Below are positions 15,183-36,912 of a DNA stretch of 36,912 bases, one piece after another. Made by a program: the position numbers and the translations under genes. The stretch's first letter is position 1. The number at the start of each line of letters is the position of its first letter. Location: assembly GCA_026991225.1 (NCBI GenBank), contig JALXCB010000170.1, positions 1 through 36,912 on the forward strand, in the 5' to 3' direction. The notes beneath the pieces were generated by a model. That model searched no databases. It was not told the DNA's origin and saw only the letters and a program-made list of their open reading frames with translations. This stretch comes from Anaerolineae bacterium. GTDB taxonomy: Bacteria > Chloroflexota > Anaerolineae > J102.

Positions 15183-15265
15183 GCCATTCCCATTTGGTTT
15201 CCTCCTGCCAGGGCGTCTTTCTCTATGCAACCCCCTCATCCCTGCTTCCCTACAGGAGTTGCCTG

Positions 15266-18200
15266 ATGGAAACGAGAAAAGCATTCACGACCGCCCTGTT
15301 GCTGGCTGTTCTGTTGACGGGGTTGATTTTTTGGGAAAGCGGCGCTGCCGCTTCGATTTCCGCCCTGGCGCCGCCTCAACCTCAAGGCCTGTTCATCGAC
15401 GCCTCATCCGCGGGCCTGCCCCAGCCCCAGGGAAAACACATCCTCCGCAGCCGCCTGGTCACCATCGACTATGAGCGATTGGAGGATGTCCGACTGCTCC
15501 TGAATCTCTTCCCCGATGCCGCGTTCACCATCATCCGTGATCGGGTCGAGCAGAACGCGTCGGGCAGCATAAGTTGGATCGGACATGTGCAGGACATGGA
15601 GGGGACCATCATCGTGCTGGTGCGCAGGGACGAGATGCTGACCGGGCTCATCACCACGCCCGTCGGCTCCTACCGCGTCACTTATCTGGGGGATGGGGTG
15701 CACGCGGTGCAACAGATGGACCCTGCGTACGTCCTGCCGCCCGTGGCGGGCGTGTTGCGAGATTATCTCGTTCCCGAAATCACGGCCAGGAAAAACGCAG
15801 GGGCGACCGCGGTCTCGGCCGCGGATGACGGCTCGGTCATCGACATCATGGTCGTCTACACCGACGACGCCGCGGACGCCACCATCCTCAGCGAGATCGA
15901 GGGCGCGGTGGCCTGGACCAACCAGAGCTACATCAACAGCGATATCAACCAGCGCCTGTGGCTGGTGCACACCATGGAAGTGTTGTATGACGAAGAGGAC
16001 CCCGATCTCCACGGCGGCAACCGCCTCAACTGGGACCTGAACAACATCACCGACCCCAACGACGGCGTCATCGACGACGTGCACCCCACCCGCAACGACT
16101 ATCACGCGGACCTGACCATGTTCGTGGTGGAGAACGCGGACAACGATGCCAACGTCTGCCGCGGCCTGGCCTGGCTTCAGGACCCCATCAGCCCTGATTT
16201 CGAGGATTACGGGTTCGCCACCATGGAAAGCTGTCTGGATTGGGGCCAGGTGATCTTCGCCCATGAGTTTGGGCACAACATGGGCGCCCGCCACGACTGG
16301 TACGTGGACGACGCCGCGACGCCCTTTCCCTACGCGCACGGCTACGTCCCAGCGGATTACGCCTTCCACACCATCATGGCGTACAGCTCCGAGTGCTCCG
16401 ACCAGGGCGCGAGTTGTCCCGGCATTCCCAACTTCTCCAATCCCAACATCGATTACAACGGCCAGCCCACGGGCGTGGATGACACCGGCCCCACCAATTG
16501 CACTGCGGGCTCGGTCCCGGCCCAACGCTGTCAGGCCGACAACCACCGCACCCTGAACAACTCGGCGCCCACGGTGGCGGGCTTCCGTCAGAGCGAGATC
16601 GTATGGACGGGCGCAGTGAACAGCGACTGGCACAACGCCTCCAACTGGGATATGCAGGAAGGCCCGGCGGGCTCGACCACGTTGGTGCACCGCGTGCCGC
16701 GCGAGTTCGACGACGTGCGCATCCCGGCCACAGCCACCGCGCCCGTCATCAGCGCCGACGCCGTGGCCCGCAACGTGCTCATCGAGGATGGCGCCACCCT
16801 TACCCAGTCCGCGGGCGTCCTCACCGTGTATGGCGATTGGGGGGTGCAGGGCGCGGGCGCGTTCCATGGCAACGGGGGCGAGGTCGTCCTGACGGGCAGG
16901 CTGCCCCAAAGCCTTATCGCCACCCCGGGCTCCTACTTCCCCAACCTCTCCATCGGGGATGGTGTCAGCACCCAGGAGATCACGCTGGGCAGCGACCTGG
17001 ACGTGAACGGCGACCTCACCCTTCAGACTAACGCCACCCTAACGGCGGGCGCGCACACGCTGCACGTGGCGGGCAACTGGAACGACAGCGGGCGTTTCGC
17101 CTACGGAACCAGCACCGTCATCCTGGATGGCGCGGCCCAGGACCTGAGCAAGCCCGTGAGCAGCGCGGTGCTGATGGATGAGCAGTTCAGCAAGGCGGAT
17201 GGCAAGGGCTGTGGGTGTAGCACGGCCTGGCTGCCCGATGGCTGGAAGCGGGAAACGGTGGATGGCTCCGGCTGGTTCGGCGGGGAGCTGCACGGCTACG
17301 ACGGCTCCGCCATCCTCTGGTGGGATTCCACCGACGGCTGGCTGTTCACCACCGGCTTCAACCTGGAGCCCGGCGTTACCTACCGCTTTTCCTTCGACTA
17401 CCGGGCGCGCAGCGGCGGGCCGGTGGACTTCAAGATCTACTATGGGGACGCCCAGGCTTCGGGCAGCATGACCACGCTCATCAGCACGGCCACCTCTTCC
17501 ACCAACGCCTACGCCACCCGAACGGATACGTTTACCGTGCCCGCGGCCGGAACGTATGTCTTCGGCATCCGGGCGCAAAAGGCGCCCGGCCCCTACGCCA
17601 TCGTGGACAATGTGAAGCTGGAGGCCCTGAGCGACCTGGCTTTCTACGACCTGCAGGTGGCCAGCACCGACCGGGCGCTGCTCTTCGACCACGATCTGAC
17701 CATGGTCCATGATCTGACGGTGGATGCGGGTGCGACGCTGGACCTGGCCAGTTACGACGCCACGGTGGACGGTGCGCTCACCAACAACGGGACGCTGCGG
17801 CAGACGAAGGCCGCGCCCGCGAGCGCGACCACCGATATTCTGCGCATCCGCAATAGCGCCGGAACCGCAGACGCTTATCTGGGCGTCGCCATCACGCCCG
17901 CCAGCGGCATGGGCGACGTCACAGTGGAAATCCAGGGCAATCAGACCGCGGGCTGCAACAGCGAAGACACCCTCATCCACCGCTGCTTCGACATCGCCCC
18001 CGCCACCAGCGCCTCCGCCACCATCCGCTTTTGGTATCTGAACAGCGAGCGCAACGGCTACGATCCTGCCAACATGCAGGTGTGGCACTGGAACGGCAGC
18101 AGTTGGGACGTGCAGGACAACGGCGGGGAGGTGCGCGGCACGGTGGGGAGCTATGAGTATGTCGAGGTGGACAACGTGAGCAGTTATTCTCCCTTCGGCC

Positions 18201-18544
18201 TGCGGGGCAAACCCCGGCCCATCGCCAGCGGCATCGCCATCGTCAGTTCCTCTATCCAGCTAAGCTGGACCCACAGCGACTCCTTCATCACCCAGTATCA
18301 AGTCTGGCGGGCGGCCGATGGCCCCTACGCCCAACCGGGCGATCCCGCCAGCCAGCTTTTGGACACCGTGCCCGCGCCCGCCAACGTGGGCGACACCGTC
18401 ACCTACACCGATAACGCCAGCAGCCTCGGTGACGCCGCCTCCAACGATTACTACTTCATCGTGGCGGAAGACGGCGCCGGAAATCAGTCGGCTGTGGACA
18501 GCCATACGGGCGAGTTCGATTTCAGTCTGGTTCCGGGACAATGA
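15266..18544 (+). CDS. Secreted multidomain metzincin metalloprotease (reprolysin-like)
   Basis: This large exported zinc endopeptidase of 1092 aa starts at ATG 15266 behind a CAGGAG site. Residues 5-30 form a signal peptide. The zinc motif H333-E-x2-G-H337-x5-H343-D344 (HEFGHNMGARHD) and a Met-turn at M371 (TIMAYSS) define a metzincin close to reprolysin/M12B-type bacterial enzymes. A 300-residue propeptide-like region precedes it. After the catalytic domain (about 205-445) come a beta-rich segment starting WTGAVNSDWHNASNWD, a jelly-roll/CBM-like segment (about 640-790) and a C-terminal fibronectin-III-like domain (about 985-1092). No sortase or type IX signal is visible. It has its own transcript, and its 3' side holds a MITE. 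The substrate is unknown. Confidence 0.88.
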   Translation: METRKAFTTALLLAVLLTGLIFWESGAAASISALAPPQPQGLFIDASSAGLPQPQGKHILRSRLVTIDYERLEDVRLLLNLFPDAAFTIIRDRVEQNASGSISWIGHVQDMEGTIIVLVRRDEMLTGLITTPVGSYRVTYLGDGVHAVQQMDPAYVLPPVAGVLRDYLVPEITARKNAGATAVSAADDGSVIDIMVVYTDDAADATILSEIEGAVAWTNQSYINSDINQRLWLVHTMEVLYDEEDPDLHGGNRLNWDLNNITDPNDGVIDDVHPTRNDYHADLTMFVVENADNDANVCRGLAWLQDPISPDFEDYGFATMESCLDWGQVIFAHEFGHNMGARHDWYVDDAATPFPYAHGYVPADYAFHTIMAYSSECSDQGASCPGIPNFSNPNIDYNGQPTGVDDTGPTNCTAGSVPAQRCQADNHRTLNNSAPTVAGFRQSEIVWTGAVNSDWHNASNWDMQEGPAGSTTLVHRVPREFDDVRIPATATAPVISADAVARNVLIEDGATLTQSAGVLTVYGDWGVQGAGAFHGNGGEVVLTGRLPQSLIATPGSYFPNLSIGDGVSTQEITLGSDLDVNGDLTLQTNATLTAGAHTLHVAGNWNDSGRFAYGTSTVILDGAAQDLSKPVSSAVLMDEQFSKADGKGCGCSTAWLPDGWKRETVDGSGWFGGELHGYDGSAILWWDSTDGWLFTTGFNLEPGVTYRFSFDYRARSGGPVDFKIYYGDAQASGSMTTLISTATSSTNAYATRTDTFTVPAAGTYVFGIRAQKAPGPYAIVDNVKLEALSDLAFYDLQVASTDRALLFDHDLTMVHDLTVDAGATLDLASYDATVDGALTNNGTLRQTKAAPASATTDILRIRNSAGTADAYLGVAITPASGMGDVTVEIQGNQTAGCNSEDTLIHRCFDIAPATSASATIRFWYLNSERNGYDPANMQVWHWNGSSWDVQDNGGEVRGTVGSYEYVEVDNVSSYSPFGLRGKPRPIASGIAIVSSSIQLSWTHSDSFITQYQVWRAADGPYAQPGDPASQLLDTVPAPANVGDTVTYTDNASSLGDAASNDYYFIVAEDGAGNQSAVDSHTGEFDFSLVPGQ

Positions 18545-32361: not shown

Positions 32362-32515
32362 GTAACTGCTAACGTACTTGATTTAGGCCGTCAAAAGCCA
32401 CGAAGGCTCGAAGTTTTTTGAAGACACGAAGGAAAAATAAAAGAAAAATACGTCGTGCCTTCGCTTTTCTTCGTGTCTTCGTGGCAAAAAGTGGTGGCGA
32501 CACCTTCGTAGTTAC
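32362..32515 (+). mobile_element. GTAAC-family element, copy B (8-bp target duplication CAAACCAT)
   Basis: This 154-bp element has the same length as copy A and nearly the same interior (GCCACGAAGGCTCGAAG facing CTTCGTGTCTTCGTGGC). The ends are GTAACTGCTAACGT and, slightly diverged, ACCTTCGTAGTTAC. The direct repeat CAAACCAT lies at 32354-32361 and 32516-32523. It lies between a TATACT box (32321) and the usp ribosome-binding site. Confidence 0.88.
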
Positions 32516-33169: not shown

Positions 33170-34012
33170 ATGTCCTGGTTCAATCCCTACCATGTGCCAT
33201 CAGCTTCGATCAAAGGCGTGCGTCGGCCCGCGGTGGCCGGGGCGTTCTACCCCGCCCAACCCGCGCGGCTGCAAGCCATGGTGGCCCAATACCTGGAGGA
33301 AGCCGCTCCCCCGCGTCTGACGGGCCGGGTGCGCGCGGTCATTGCACCCCATGCCGGGTATATCTACTCCGGGCCCATCGCCGGATACAGCTTCCGAGCA
33401 CTGGCTCCCCTGCCCCAGGACGCGACCGTATTCCTCATGGGGCCCGCGCATTACGTGCCCGTCTCCGACGTGGCTCTGGGCTATTTCCAGAGCATGGAGA
33501 CGCCATTGGGCCCGGTGGAGGTGGATGAGGCGCTGGTCCAGACATTGGCGGAAGAAAGCGCCTGCATGACCATCCAGAACGACGCGCATCTGCCCGAACA
33601 CAGCCTGGAAGTGGAGCTTCCTTTCCTGCAGATGATTGCTTCGGACCGCTTTCGGGTGGTCCCTATGCTGTTCGGGCAGCCGAATCCCGAATGCGTGGCC
33701 GACGTCCTCGCGCCTATCCTGGCCCGAGACCCCAAAGCGCGCATCGTGGTCAGTTCTGACCTGAGTCACTATCATCCCTATGCCACGGCCCGTCGGCTGG
33801 ACGCCAGCTTTATCGATGCGGTACTGCGCGGGGATACTGTTGCGGTAGCTCGGGGCGAGGCCTGCGGCCGCTATCCCATCCTCGCCCTCATGGCCATCGC
33901 CCAAGCCCTGGGCTGGACGCCCCATCTCCTGGACTATCGCAATTCCGGCGACACCGCGGGCGACAAACGTCAGGTGGTCGGCTACGCGGCCATCGCCTTC
34001 ACGGAGGAGTGA
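33170..34012 (+). CDS. amrB: AmmeMemoRadiSam system protein B (Memo family)
   Basis: This 280-aa protein belongs to the Memo family, which shares the fold of class III extradiol dioxygenases. The family blocks are all present: VAGAFYPAQP near the N-terminus, APHAGYIYSGPIAGYSF (about 59-75), LMGPAHYVP, NDAHLPEHSLEVELPFLQ and SSDLSHYHPY. The histidines and Asp/Glu in these blocks line the metal-like pocket of characterised Memo proteins. An AGGAGG site precedes the ATG by six bases. The stop is three bases before the amrA ATG, so the genes are cotranscribed. The third partner of the set, a radical SAM enzyme, is not in the window. The precise reaction is unknown. Confidence 0.93.
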   Translation: MSWFNPYHVPSASIKGVRRPAVAGAFYPAQPARLQAMVAQYLEEAAPPRLTGRVRAVIAPHAGYIYSGPIAGYSFRALAPLPQDATVFLMGPAHYVPVSDVALGYFQSMETPLGPVEVDEALVQTLAEESACMTIQNDAHLPEHSLEVELPFLQMIASDRFRVVPMLFGQPNPECVADVLAPILARDPKARIVVSSDLSHYHPYATARRLDASFIDAVLRGDTVAVARGEACGRYPILALMAIAQALGWTPHLLDYRNSGDTAGDKRQVVGYAAIAFTEE

Positions 34013-34015
34013 GCC

Positions 34016-34630
34016 ATGAAGACGCAAACGCAAACCCTTCCTTACGGTCTCACCCAAACCGACATCGACACCCTGTTTGCCATCGCCCGCGAGGCCCTGC
34101 GCCGCAGCACGCTCCAGCGAGACATGCAATGGCTTCCCGACCTGGAGCAATTTCCCGAGCGTCTGCGCCAGCCCGCGGCCACCTTCGTCACCCTCCACAC
34201 CGATGGCAAGCTGCACGGCTGCATCGGCTCGGTGGAGCCGCGACTGCCGTTGGCCTGGGATGTGGCCAAGAACGCCATCGCCGCCGCCCACCATGATCCC
34301 CGCTTTCCGCCTCTGCGGCCCGACGAACTGGATCGCACCGAGGTGGAGATCTCCATCCTCTCACCCCTCCAGGAACTGCCCTACGCCAGCTTCGAGGAAC
34401 TGATGGCGAAGGTGCGTCCGGGCGTGGATGGCGTCATGGTGGAGCGAGGTTGGCAGCGCGGGCTGCTTTTGCCCCAGGTATGGGAAGACCTGCCCGACCG
34501 CCGTCGCTTCCTGGAGCATGTGGCGCTGAAGGCCGGCGCGGGCCCGGAGATCTATCTGGATCCCAGAACGAAGGTCTACACCTTCCAGGTGCACAGCTTC
34601 ACCCAACCGGCACCAATCACCCAACGCTGA
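34016..34630 (+). CDS. amrA: AmmeMemoRadiSam system protein A (AMMECR1 family)
   Basis: This 204-aa protein has the AMMECR1 domain, found in all three domains of life and of unproven function. The hallmark hexapeptide is LHGCIG (66-71; LRGCIG in most relatives), with the Cys in the conserved groove. Later blocks are AAAHHDPRFPPL, VEISILSPL and WQRGLLLPQVWED. GGAGG in the end of amrB serves as its ribosome-binding site. The stop codon TGA at 34628-34630 belongs to the inserted 225-bp MITE. Joining the flanks across the insertion restores CGT TAG, which encodes the same final Arg and a stop, so the protein is unchanged. Function is inferred from the amrB pairing. Confidence 0.93.
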   Translation: MKTQTQTLPYGLTQTDIDTLFAIAREALRRSTLQRDMQWLPDLEQFPERLRQPAATFVTLHTDGKLHGCIGSVEPRLPLAWDVAKNAIAAAHHDPRFPPLRPDELDRTEVEISILSPLQELPYASFEELMAKVRPGVDGVMVERGWQRGLLLPQVWEDLPDRRRFLEHVALKAGAGPEIYLDPRTKVYTFQVHSFTQPAPITQR

Positions 34631-34871: not shown

Positions 34872-35003
34872 GTAACTGCTAACGTCCTCGACTTTAGGCC
34901 GCAAGAAGCCACGAAGGCTCGAAGTTTTGCGAAGACGCGAAGGGAAAATAAGGGAAAAAGGCTTCGCGCCTTCGTGGCAAAAAGTGGCGGCGCCACCTCA
35001 GTA
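34872..35003 (+). mobile_element. GTAAC-family element, copy C (shortened)
   Basis: It begins GTAACTGCTAACGT and has the A/B-type interior (GCCACGAAGGCTCGAAG, CGCCTTCGTGGC), but the right end is degraded to CCTCAGTA. Flanks GACTAAAC (34864-34871) and AACTAAAC (35004-35011) differ at one base, as expected for an old duplication. It lies 20 bp after MITE copy 3. Confidence 0.7.
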
Positions 35004-35652: not shown

Positions 35653-35681
35653 TTGACTTTCTTTGAAAGTTCGGTTATACT
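35653..35681 (+). promoter_or_regulatory. Strong promoter with spacer operator upstream of the 48-aa peptide gene
   Basis: TTGACT (35653-35658), a 17-bp spacer and TATACT (35676-35681) form a near-consensus promoter. The dyad ACTTTC-TTT-GAAAGT at 35656-35670 overlaps the -35 box and fills the spacer, a position where a bound repressor would block RNA polymerase. The predicted start is near 35688, leaving a leader of about 107 bases. Confidence 0.7.
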
Positions 35682-35794
35682 TTTATGAAATGGGTAAATG
35701 GATAATCCAACAAAATTGACACACATTGAATTCTTTTTATTCACCTCGCGGGTTTTGTTCATCGACTTTGTCTGCCACTCAAGGAGATCGCGTT

Positions 35795-35941
35795 ATGTCA
35801 CACAACCAATACCCCTTGACGAAACATTCTCAAACCTATTCCCCTCCAAAGATCACCCATCGCGGCGCGCTAAAGCAATTCGCGGGATCGCCTTTGGGCA
35901 AGGACAAGGGCATTGGGCTTCCCGGTTTACCGTGGGAATAG
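35795..35941 (+). CDS. Candidate RiPP (lasso-type) precursor peptide, 48 aa
   Basis: This short gene starts with ATG at 35795 behind AAGGAG (nine bases upstream). The peptide has a polar N-terminal half containing Y15-x2-P18-x-I20-x3-G24, the leader pattern recognised by the B1/RRE protein of lasso-peptide systems (usually Y-x2-P-x-L-x3-G). The C-terminal part (30-48) is Gly/Pro-rich, with GSPLG at 31-35 and ending PGLPWE. If A30 or G31 is the first core residue, D37 would be the acceptor of an 8- or 7-residue macrolactam ring. The usual Thr two residues before the core is not evident. No maturation gene lies in the window. An overlapping longer frame (35698-35964) has no ribosome-binding site. 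The gene is convincing; the RiPP assignment is an inference. Confidence 0.55.
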   Translation: MSHNQYPLTKHSQTYSPPKITHRGALKQFAGSPLGKDKGIGLPGLPWE

Positions 35942-36046: not shown

Positions 36047-36556
36047 ATGAAACGTTCACTCATTCTGCTGGCGGTTGTCTTCCTGGTGTTGGGGGTCTTC
36101 GTCCAATCCAGTCTGGCCTATTCCTACGTCCAGGGATGCGTTGTCGATGGAAAAACGAATCAGCCCTGGACGCACGGCGGCACAGTAACCCTGGACGGAG
36201 GCGTTTTTGGATCAAAGACCACCACTCTTGACGCGAGTGGTTGCTTTACCTCTCCCTTGCCAACCAGTGTATTTGGCAATCCTGAAACCGATGTCATCGT
36301 GGACCTGGATCCGGGCCCAGCTGGCGACCCGCCCCCTGAGACCCTATGCGTGGTGCCCAAAGATAATACAAGCGGCCCCGACGCCATCTACGATTGCGGA
36401 ACACTTACGGCCTCGGTGGGCCCGAACGCGGTCTATCTCATCCAAATGAACGCAATGGGACCTTCAACCCCACTCGTGGCCTCGATCGCTCTGGGCTTTG
36501 TAGGACTGGCCGCCACCTTGGGCCTGGCCGCCTTCTGGCGCCGACGCTACGCATGA
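36047..36556 (+). CDS. Small secreted protein with C-terminal membrane/Arg anchor
   Basis: This 169-aa protein is of unrecognised family. The N-terminus is a signal peptide (KRS then about 16 hydrophobic residues), with likely cleavage after SLA at 24. The mature part is beta-rich. Its opening GCVVDGKTNQPWTHGGTVTLDGG resembles carboxypeptidase-regulatory/CNA-B-like domains, and four Cys (31, 66, 101, 117) could form two disulfides. A second hydrophobic helix (about 143-163) is followed immediately by FWRRRYA, a tripartite ending like the protein-sorting tails cleaved by exosortase or related enzymes, though no PEP-type motif is evident. ATGGAGG precedes the start at 36047. It follows the 48-aa peptide gene by 105 bp and ends before a terminator. 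Confidence 0.82.
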   Translation: MKRSLILLAVVFLVLGVFVQSSLAYSYVQGCVVDGKTNQPWTHGGTVTLDGGVFGSKTTTLDASGCFTSPLPTSVFGNPETDVIVDLDPGPAGDPPPETLCVVPKDNTSGPDAIYDCGTLTASVGPNAVYLIQMNAMGPSTPLVASIALGFVGLAATLGLAAFWRRRYA

Positions 36557-36583: not shown

Positions 36584-36612
36584 AAAACCCGACTTGCCTG
36601 GTCGGGTTTTTA
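36584..36612 (+). terminator. Intrinsic terminator of the secreted-protein gene
   Basis: AAAACCCGAC and GTCGGGTTTT form a 10-bp stem around TTGCCTG, continued by T residues. It lies 27 bases after the stop and closes a possible transcript that begins at the 35653 promoter. Confidence 0.88.
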
Positions 36613-36655
36613 TATGGCGGGTTTGCAACTATACATGGCTTCACTGCAAAAAGGT

Positions 36656-36785: not shown

Positions 36786-36912
36786 GTAACTACTAAGGTC
36801 GCGCCGCCGCTTTTTGCCACGAAGACACGAAGAAAACGAAGGCACGACGTATTTTTCTTTATTTTTCCCTTCGTGTCTTCGAAAAACTTCGAGCCTTCGT
36901 GGCTTTTGGCGG
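36786..36912 (-). mobile_element. GTAAC-family element, copy E (cut by the window end)
   Basis: GTAACTACTAAGGTCGCGCC followed by CCACGAAGACACGAAG and CTTCGAGCCTTCGTGGC is the reverse orientation of copies A and B. About 25-30 bases of the far end, and the second target duplication, lie outside the window. Confidence 0.8.

Follow-up and report, generated by a model that had tools for sequence, protein, structure and literature searches.

The question raised by this locus was whether a 48-codon reading frame near the end of a 36,912-nt contig of an Anaerolineae bacterium (contig C170 of the 3.87-Mb, 97% complete assembly G000; the whole contig is called the window) encodes the precursor of a lasso peptide, since the original prediction had described it as an orphan lasso-type RiPP precursor. 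Judged by sequence comparison, the 48-aa frame is confirmed as a real gene and not a chance one. It is preceded by the good Shine-Dalgarno site that had been pointed out before (Table 1), and its homologues favoured the ATG start over an alternative in-frame TTG at 35726. When the peptide gene was compared with its orthologue in a congener (G001:C25), a pN of 0.28 and a pS of 0.98 were obtained, nearly all synonymous sites being different, which indicates that the frame is under purifying selection and the peptide translated. About 120 kb of G000 contained 807 short ORFs, and only two of them carried the pattern Y..P.[LI]...G, namely the window ORF and a paralogue on contig C70. The Y-x2-P-x-I-x3-G signature reported for the N-terminal half was read in the translation as Y15-S-P-P18-K-I20-T-H-R-G24, followed by ALKQF-AGSPLG-KDKGIGLPGLPWE, and the candidate core product has the sequence AGSPLGKDKGIGLPGLPWE. 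The predicted role of this leader motif in RRE binding was taken from published work (PMC13381572; PMC10368454).

Table 1. Features of the peptide gene and of its downstream partner (positions in the window).
Feature	Positions	Strand	Remarks
Promoter-like site TTGACT-17-TATACT (candidate)	35653..35681	+	10/12 matches; ~110 bp upstream of the peptide
Shine-Dalgarno sequence AAGGAG	35781..35786	+	8 nt before the peptide ATG; read directly
48-aa RiPP-type precursor peptide (predicted) MSHNQYPLTKHSQTYSPPKITHRGALKQFAGSPLGKDKGIGLPGLPWE	35795..35941	+	48 codons and stop; ATG start
Leader signature Y15xxPxIxxxG24, predicted RRE-binding motif	35837..35866	+	Tyr and Pro invariant in alignments A1-A3
A30-G-S32-P-L-G35, conserved predicted core start	35882..35899	+	Ser32 = predicted core residue 3
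Variable C-terminal tail KDKGIGLPGLPWE	35900..35938	+	Most divergent part between members, besides the N-terminal end
Secreted protein of 169 aa with signal peptide, predicted beta-sandwich domain and C-terminal TM helix	36047..36556	+	Co-directional with the peptide
C-terminal tail of the secreted protein, GPNAVYLIQMNA - TM helix - WRRRYA	36419..36553	+	Same kind of tail beside 19/25 clade members
Candidate intrinsic terminator AAAACCCGAC-loop-GTCGGGTTTT	36584..36616	+	Read by hand; not reported by the automated scan

A profile search over 396 genomes of the class found homologous short ORFs with the same leader, which the original prediction had proposed to look for, in 99 (E<=0.1), and 96 distinct family peptides were collected. 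Homologues occur in most genomes of the window organism's genus; G000 itself has three copies (the window contig, C70 and C17), other congeners have up to four and a related genus has up to five, the range being 0-5 per genome. In the collection scan, the named relatives were MAGs of Anaerolineae, Caldilineae and Caldilineales (Chloroflexota). The family is marked by Y-x-x-P-x-[IV], a hydrophobic residue six positions on, A-G-[S/T]-P-[L/I] and a short, variable and often acidic tail, and 95 of the 96 members have Ser or Thr as the third residue of A-G-[S/T]. Outside the class, only two weak matches were seen in 400 genomes of the phylum, and no relative was detected in the viral contigs searched. 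Neither Pfam nor NCBIfam matched the peptide or its closer relatives, and the distant ones had no match in NCBIfam. By its sequence, then, the peptide is one of a previously undescribed group of small Chloroflexota (Anaerolineae) peptides with a docking signal like that of lasso precursors; its RiPP-type status rests on this signature, on the family and on genetic linkage in relatives. The predicted core start AGSPLG was nearly invariant, not variable. GSPLG was conserved as strongly as the leader, which is unusual for a core and makes the core boundary uncertain.

We then considered whether the peptide could be a true lasso peptide served in trans, in which an RRE and a B2 protease would remove the leader and a cyclase would link Gly31 or Ala30 to Asp37. 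The YxxPxI leader agrees with this, and so does Asp37, which is the seventh residue if Gly31 is taken as the first, or the eighth if Ala30 is, and thus stands at a ring-compatible position, as had been claimed. No B or C maturation gene was found near the peptide, again as described; the genome-wide search did recover PqqD genes elsewhere in G000, one on contig C86 and two on C112, together with a single transglutaminase-like, B2-like gene on contig C12, which reached 30.3 bits against the NF033537 cut-off of 33 and stands alone, no precursor being found near it. A lasso-type cyclase was present in the congener G005 (NF033535, E 5e-99; PF00733, 5e-38), adjoining a precursor-like peptide with YSPPKLTLYGNIYQKTQNSFLVSGLDFGFQQKTG. 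The cluster in question (L173, G005:C273 337-5732) comprises the cyclase, PqqD, a PF14907 protein, an HprK-like protein and that precursor.

Against this reading, the only PF00733 or asparagine-synthase-family match in G000 was the GMP synthase GuaA, so that this 97% complete genome has no lasso cyclase, an absence that the original prediction had itself named as speaking against it. The G005 cyclase, used as query, gave no match in G000, G001, G002, G004, G006, G008 or G010, all of which bear the peptide family. Contig C112 of G000 retains the nucleotidyltransferase and PqqD genes that precede the cyclase in G005, but at the expected place of the cyclase a stretch of about 850 bp, in part repeats, holds no such gene and is followed by an unrelated one. 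An Asp or Glu at position 7-9, counted from Gly, was found in 56 of 89 unique cores and was missing in about a third; the C70 paralogue and its relatives (GSPLGKKLGNPLGLPGQD) had no acid there, and neither did any core of the GSPLGKKLGNPLG group. The window peptide also lacks the penultimate leader Thr, having Gln28-Phe29 before Ala30 or Phe29-Ala30 before Gly31, although Ile(-2) does occur in the Bsf lasso leader (PMC10368454), and the NCBIfam lasso leader model NF033521 gave no match at the peptide locus. With no cyclase in G000 or six relatives, no conserved ring acid (a close branch has none at position 7, 8 or 9) and no match to the leader model, the lasso product was rejected, and its formation in trans is largely refuted and must be regarded as highly improbable. 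Of the original prediction, the orphan state, the RiPP-type character and the leader signature for RRE binding stood, and the lasso assignment fell.

A closer likeness was found with the linear polyphosphorylated peptides (LPPs) of Bacillota reported by Popov et al. (PMC13381572), whose leader motif is YxxPxVLxHQxIxFETxxS and whose set consists of an RRE (LppB), an HprK-like kinase (LppK) whose target is Ser3 in the core start A-Q-S, a SpI-like peptidase (LppS) and an NTP transferase (LppN). An RRE-aided HprK-like kinase was also reported to act on core Ser3 in a lasso pathway (Duan et al., PMC10368454). In the present family, as in the LPPs, the leader has YxxP, the predicted core begins with Ala-x-Ser and the scheme needs no cyclase; if cleavage occurs before Ala30, Ser32 would take core position 3 and would be analogous to A-Q-S3 of LppA. 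A corresponding set of HprK-like kinase, discrete RRE, NTP transferase and SpI-like peptidase is present on C112. The family differs in belonging to Chloroflexota, whereas LPPs were stated by the authors to be restricted to Bacillota, in having A-G-S one residue nearer to the leader motif than the LPP Ser when aligned on Tyr, and in C25 peptidases that replace or join SpI; the window copy, moreover, is an orphan, and its neighbour is a tagged surface protein. An LPP gene set in one cluster with the precursor was absent at the window locus, and on C112 the set is accompanied by a radical SAM gene and by a different precursor, of the W type. As far as could be seen, the window peptide is an LPP-like variant for which no earlier report was found in the literature searched.

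Other known systems resembled the family in part. Lasso systems of the Bsf/paeninodin type (PMC10368454; PMC5067487) have the same leader motif, a B1-type RRE and an HprK-like kinase, which in Bsf targets core Ser3, but the present case lacks a cyclase, an adjacent B2, a conserved ring acid and Thr(-2). The SynChlorMet cassette (NCBIfam TIGR04248-TIGR04251) likewise combines PqqD with an HprK-related, ScmC-like protein (E 9e-8), but all matches were far below the cut-offs, and the radical-SAM proteins ScmE and ScmF were not seen beside family peptides. The third comparison concerned the PorU C25 sortase of type IX secretion; C25 neighbours of family peptides appear to be secreted, and the two that were tested matched the PorU model NF033707 with E of about 1e-57 to 1e-59, below the model cut-off. 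They come from another phylum, neither A-LPS nor a CTD was demonstrated here, and the tail in the present case is a TM helix with Arg, in contrast to the beta-sandwich CTD.

The residues N33 and D70 of LppB, which contact the leader's Pro and Tyr (PMC13381572), served as reference for the RREs. In the RREs beside Y-type peptides the N33 equivalent was kept in 19 of 19, and the D70 equivalent was Asp in 18 and Glu in one; the RRE on a contig of G009 was an exception with Ser at the D70 position. Ser stood at this place in three RREs from radical-SAM clusters of the W type, one of them the first RRE on C112. The RRE on contig C86 of G000 and its counterparts in congeners retained both Asn and Asp, which makes it the best candidate in G000 to receive the window peptide, although this PqqD gene adjoins a Nudix gene and may serve something other than the window peptide. 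The C112 kinase cluster as the peptide's own was weakened, its precursor being WxxP and its RRE having Ser at the Tyr-binding Asp.

The C112 cluster is conserved in its own right. In G000 (L030, C112 4075-11172) it holds a PF14907 nucleotidyltransferase, a SpI/S24-like peptidase, an HprK-like kinase, PqqD, a radical SAM/SPASM gene, a WxxP precursor (for example ...RKPWIEPAVTFERPLEVHADGPPDKRSQQSFSFLGPLYASQNSGVCH) and a C25 peptidase, and it adjoins a polysaccharide chain-length/kinase-like gene. It was also found in G005 (L173), G018 (L172) and G016 (L175), contig order or contig ends hiding part of the set in G005 and G016. We regard clusters of this type as radical-SAM LPP-like RiPP clusters.

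Gene neighbourhoods in the wider family connected the peptides with such machinery. Of 71 peptides, 19 had a PqqD-type RRE within 6 kb (0.2 expected, P about 1e-30), 23 had a C25 peptidase (0.5 expected, P about 1e-29) and 11 an HprK-like kinase. These P values are approximate, because loci of this very set had seeded the neighbour HMMs, contigs are often short and related genomes do not count as independent, but the contrast with expectation is still large. In the window's own clade, the 25 loci had no PqqD, no HprK-like gene and one C25 within the same distance. That one clade is nevertheless tied to the RRE/C25 cluster by a contig of G009, on which two clade members occur and where one lies 4.7 kb from a C25 gene and 8 kb from a PqqD gene. 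An HprK-like kinase was undetected in six peptide-bearing relatives (G001, G002, G004, G006, G008 and G010), hence phosphorylation cannot be general in the window's clade, and PqqD was undetected in the peptide-bearing G013 and G019 (the latter 79% complete); allowing for incomplete MAGs, neither appears strictly required. Five C25 peptidase genes were counted in G000 (contigs C68, C160, C108 and C112), two of them in tandem on C68, and a tandem pair recurs in several congeners.

Downstream of the peptide lies the gene of a secreted protein (Table 1), with which it is probably co-transcribed. A candidate promoter and a candidate terminator bracket the two genes, the promoter-like site being only a candidate because two such sites were found against 1.3 expected by chance. 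Full-length homologues of the partner were found only in G001 and G010, each adjoining the peptide, and a fourth match, in G051, covered only the N-terminal 68 residues. Its predicted structure (pLDDT 61) gave a vague transthyretin/Ig-like sandwich and no significant match in a PDB search. Beside 19 of the 25 peptides of the window's clade, a same-strand secreted protein was found at a distance of at most 300 bp, with a tail of AVTLxxFxA (for example AVTLSSFSA), a TM helix and an Arg-rich end, and the outer domains of these tagged partners varied (DNRLRE/CBM96-like, beta-sandwich and others). Neither 152 kb of control sequence from the same genomes nor the rest of the window gave the tail detector a hit, a contrast that is descriptive since the detector was written after the pattern had been seen. 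Several secreted proteins near family members (L033, L034, L044 and L048) have an FN3-like C-terminal region with the motif G-x-F-x-F-x-L-x-P-G (e.g. TGEFDFSLVPGQ), as does the end of the window protein at 15194-18544, and this end is a possible recurrent C-terminal signal.

Taken together, we favour, with moderate confidence, a reading in which the 48-aa peptide is a precursor whose product is RiPP-like and linear, not a lasso; it would be presented by an RRE in trans and would work with the anchored partner. Residues 1-29 would form the leader, and its Y-x2-P-x-I motif would dock onto a PqqD-type RRE, for which C86 is the first choice in G000; with no RRE gene adjacent, this docking would take place in trans. 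The conserved AGSPLG start would then be exposed, and Ser32 would be the likely site of modification, phosphorylated where an HprK-like kinase exists (in G000, on C112). The peptidase that frees the core would most likely come from the secreted C25/PorU-like group, members of which lie beside relatives of the gene, or else be the SpI-like one on C112, and the product may act at the cell surface with the membrane-anchored protein encoded at 36047-36556.

The clade's close pairing with tagged proteins could be read otherwise, with the peptide acting, unmodified, as a small accessory protein (chaperone, adaptor or inhibitor) to its tagged surface partner, and its leader being a retained binding motif rather than a RiPP leader. 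Conservation running through GSPLG, the orphan status of the clade and the absence of HprK from most of its genomes agree with such a role, but relatives cluster with RRE, kinase and peptidase genes, and the peptide is constant while the outer domains of the tagged partners differ; we consider it rather unlikely. A bolder scheme, in which the RRE hands the peptide to a PorU-like C25 transpeptidase that couples the core to the AVTLxxFxA-TM-Arg tail or exchanges it with that tail, seems quite improbable; were it true, a RiPP would serve as the protein-anchoring group of a cell-surface display system. Machinery not adjacent to the gene and the patchy copy number would also suit a relic precursor, left with no present function after loss of its biosynthetic cluster, but purifying selection with synonymous sites saturated and the retention of the two-gene unit across genera make this scarcely credible.

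The linear, non-lasso reading would place LPP-like RiPP precursors with lasso leaders in Chloroflexota, would add C25/PorU-like peptidases to the candidate RiPP-processing enzymes and would link peptides of this family to a repeated C-terminal tail on surface proteins. For genome miners it carries the warning that a lasso leader signature is by itself no predictor of a lasso, and that YxxPxL orphans should not be called lasso peptides.

Two further features of the window were recorded. A dispersed intergenic repeat of about GCCACGAAGGCTCGAAGTTTTxxGAAGACxCGAAGG occurs at 32382-32510, 34893-35003 and 36871-36903, and also after the C112 cluster. At 33170-34630, a MEMO1-like gene next to an AMMECR1-like gene was recognised by eye; both belong to the AmmeMemoRadiSam set.
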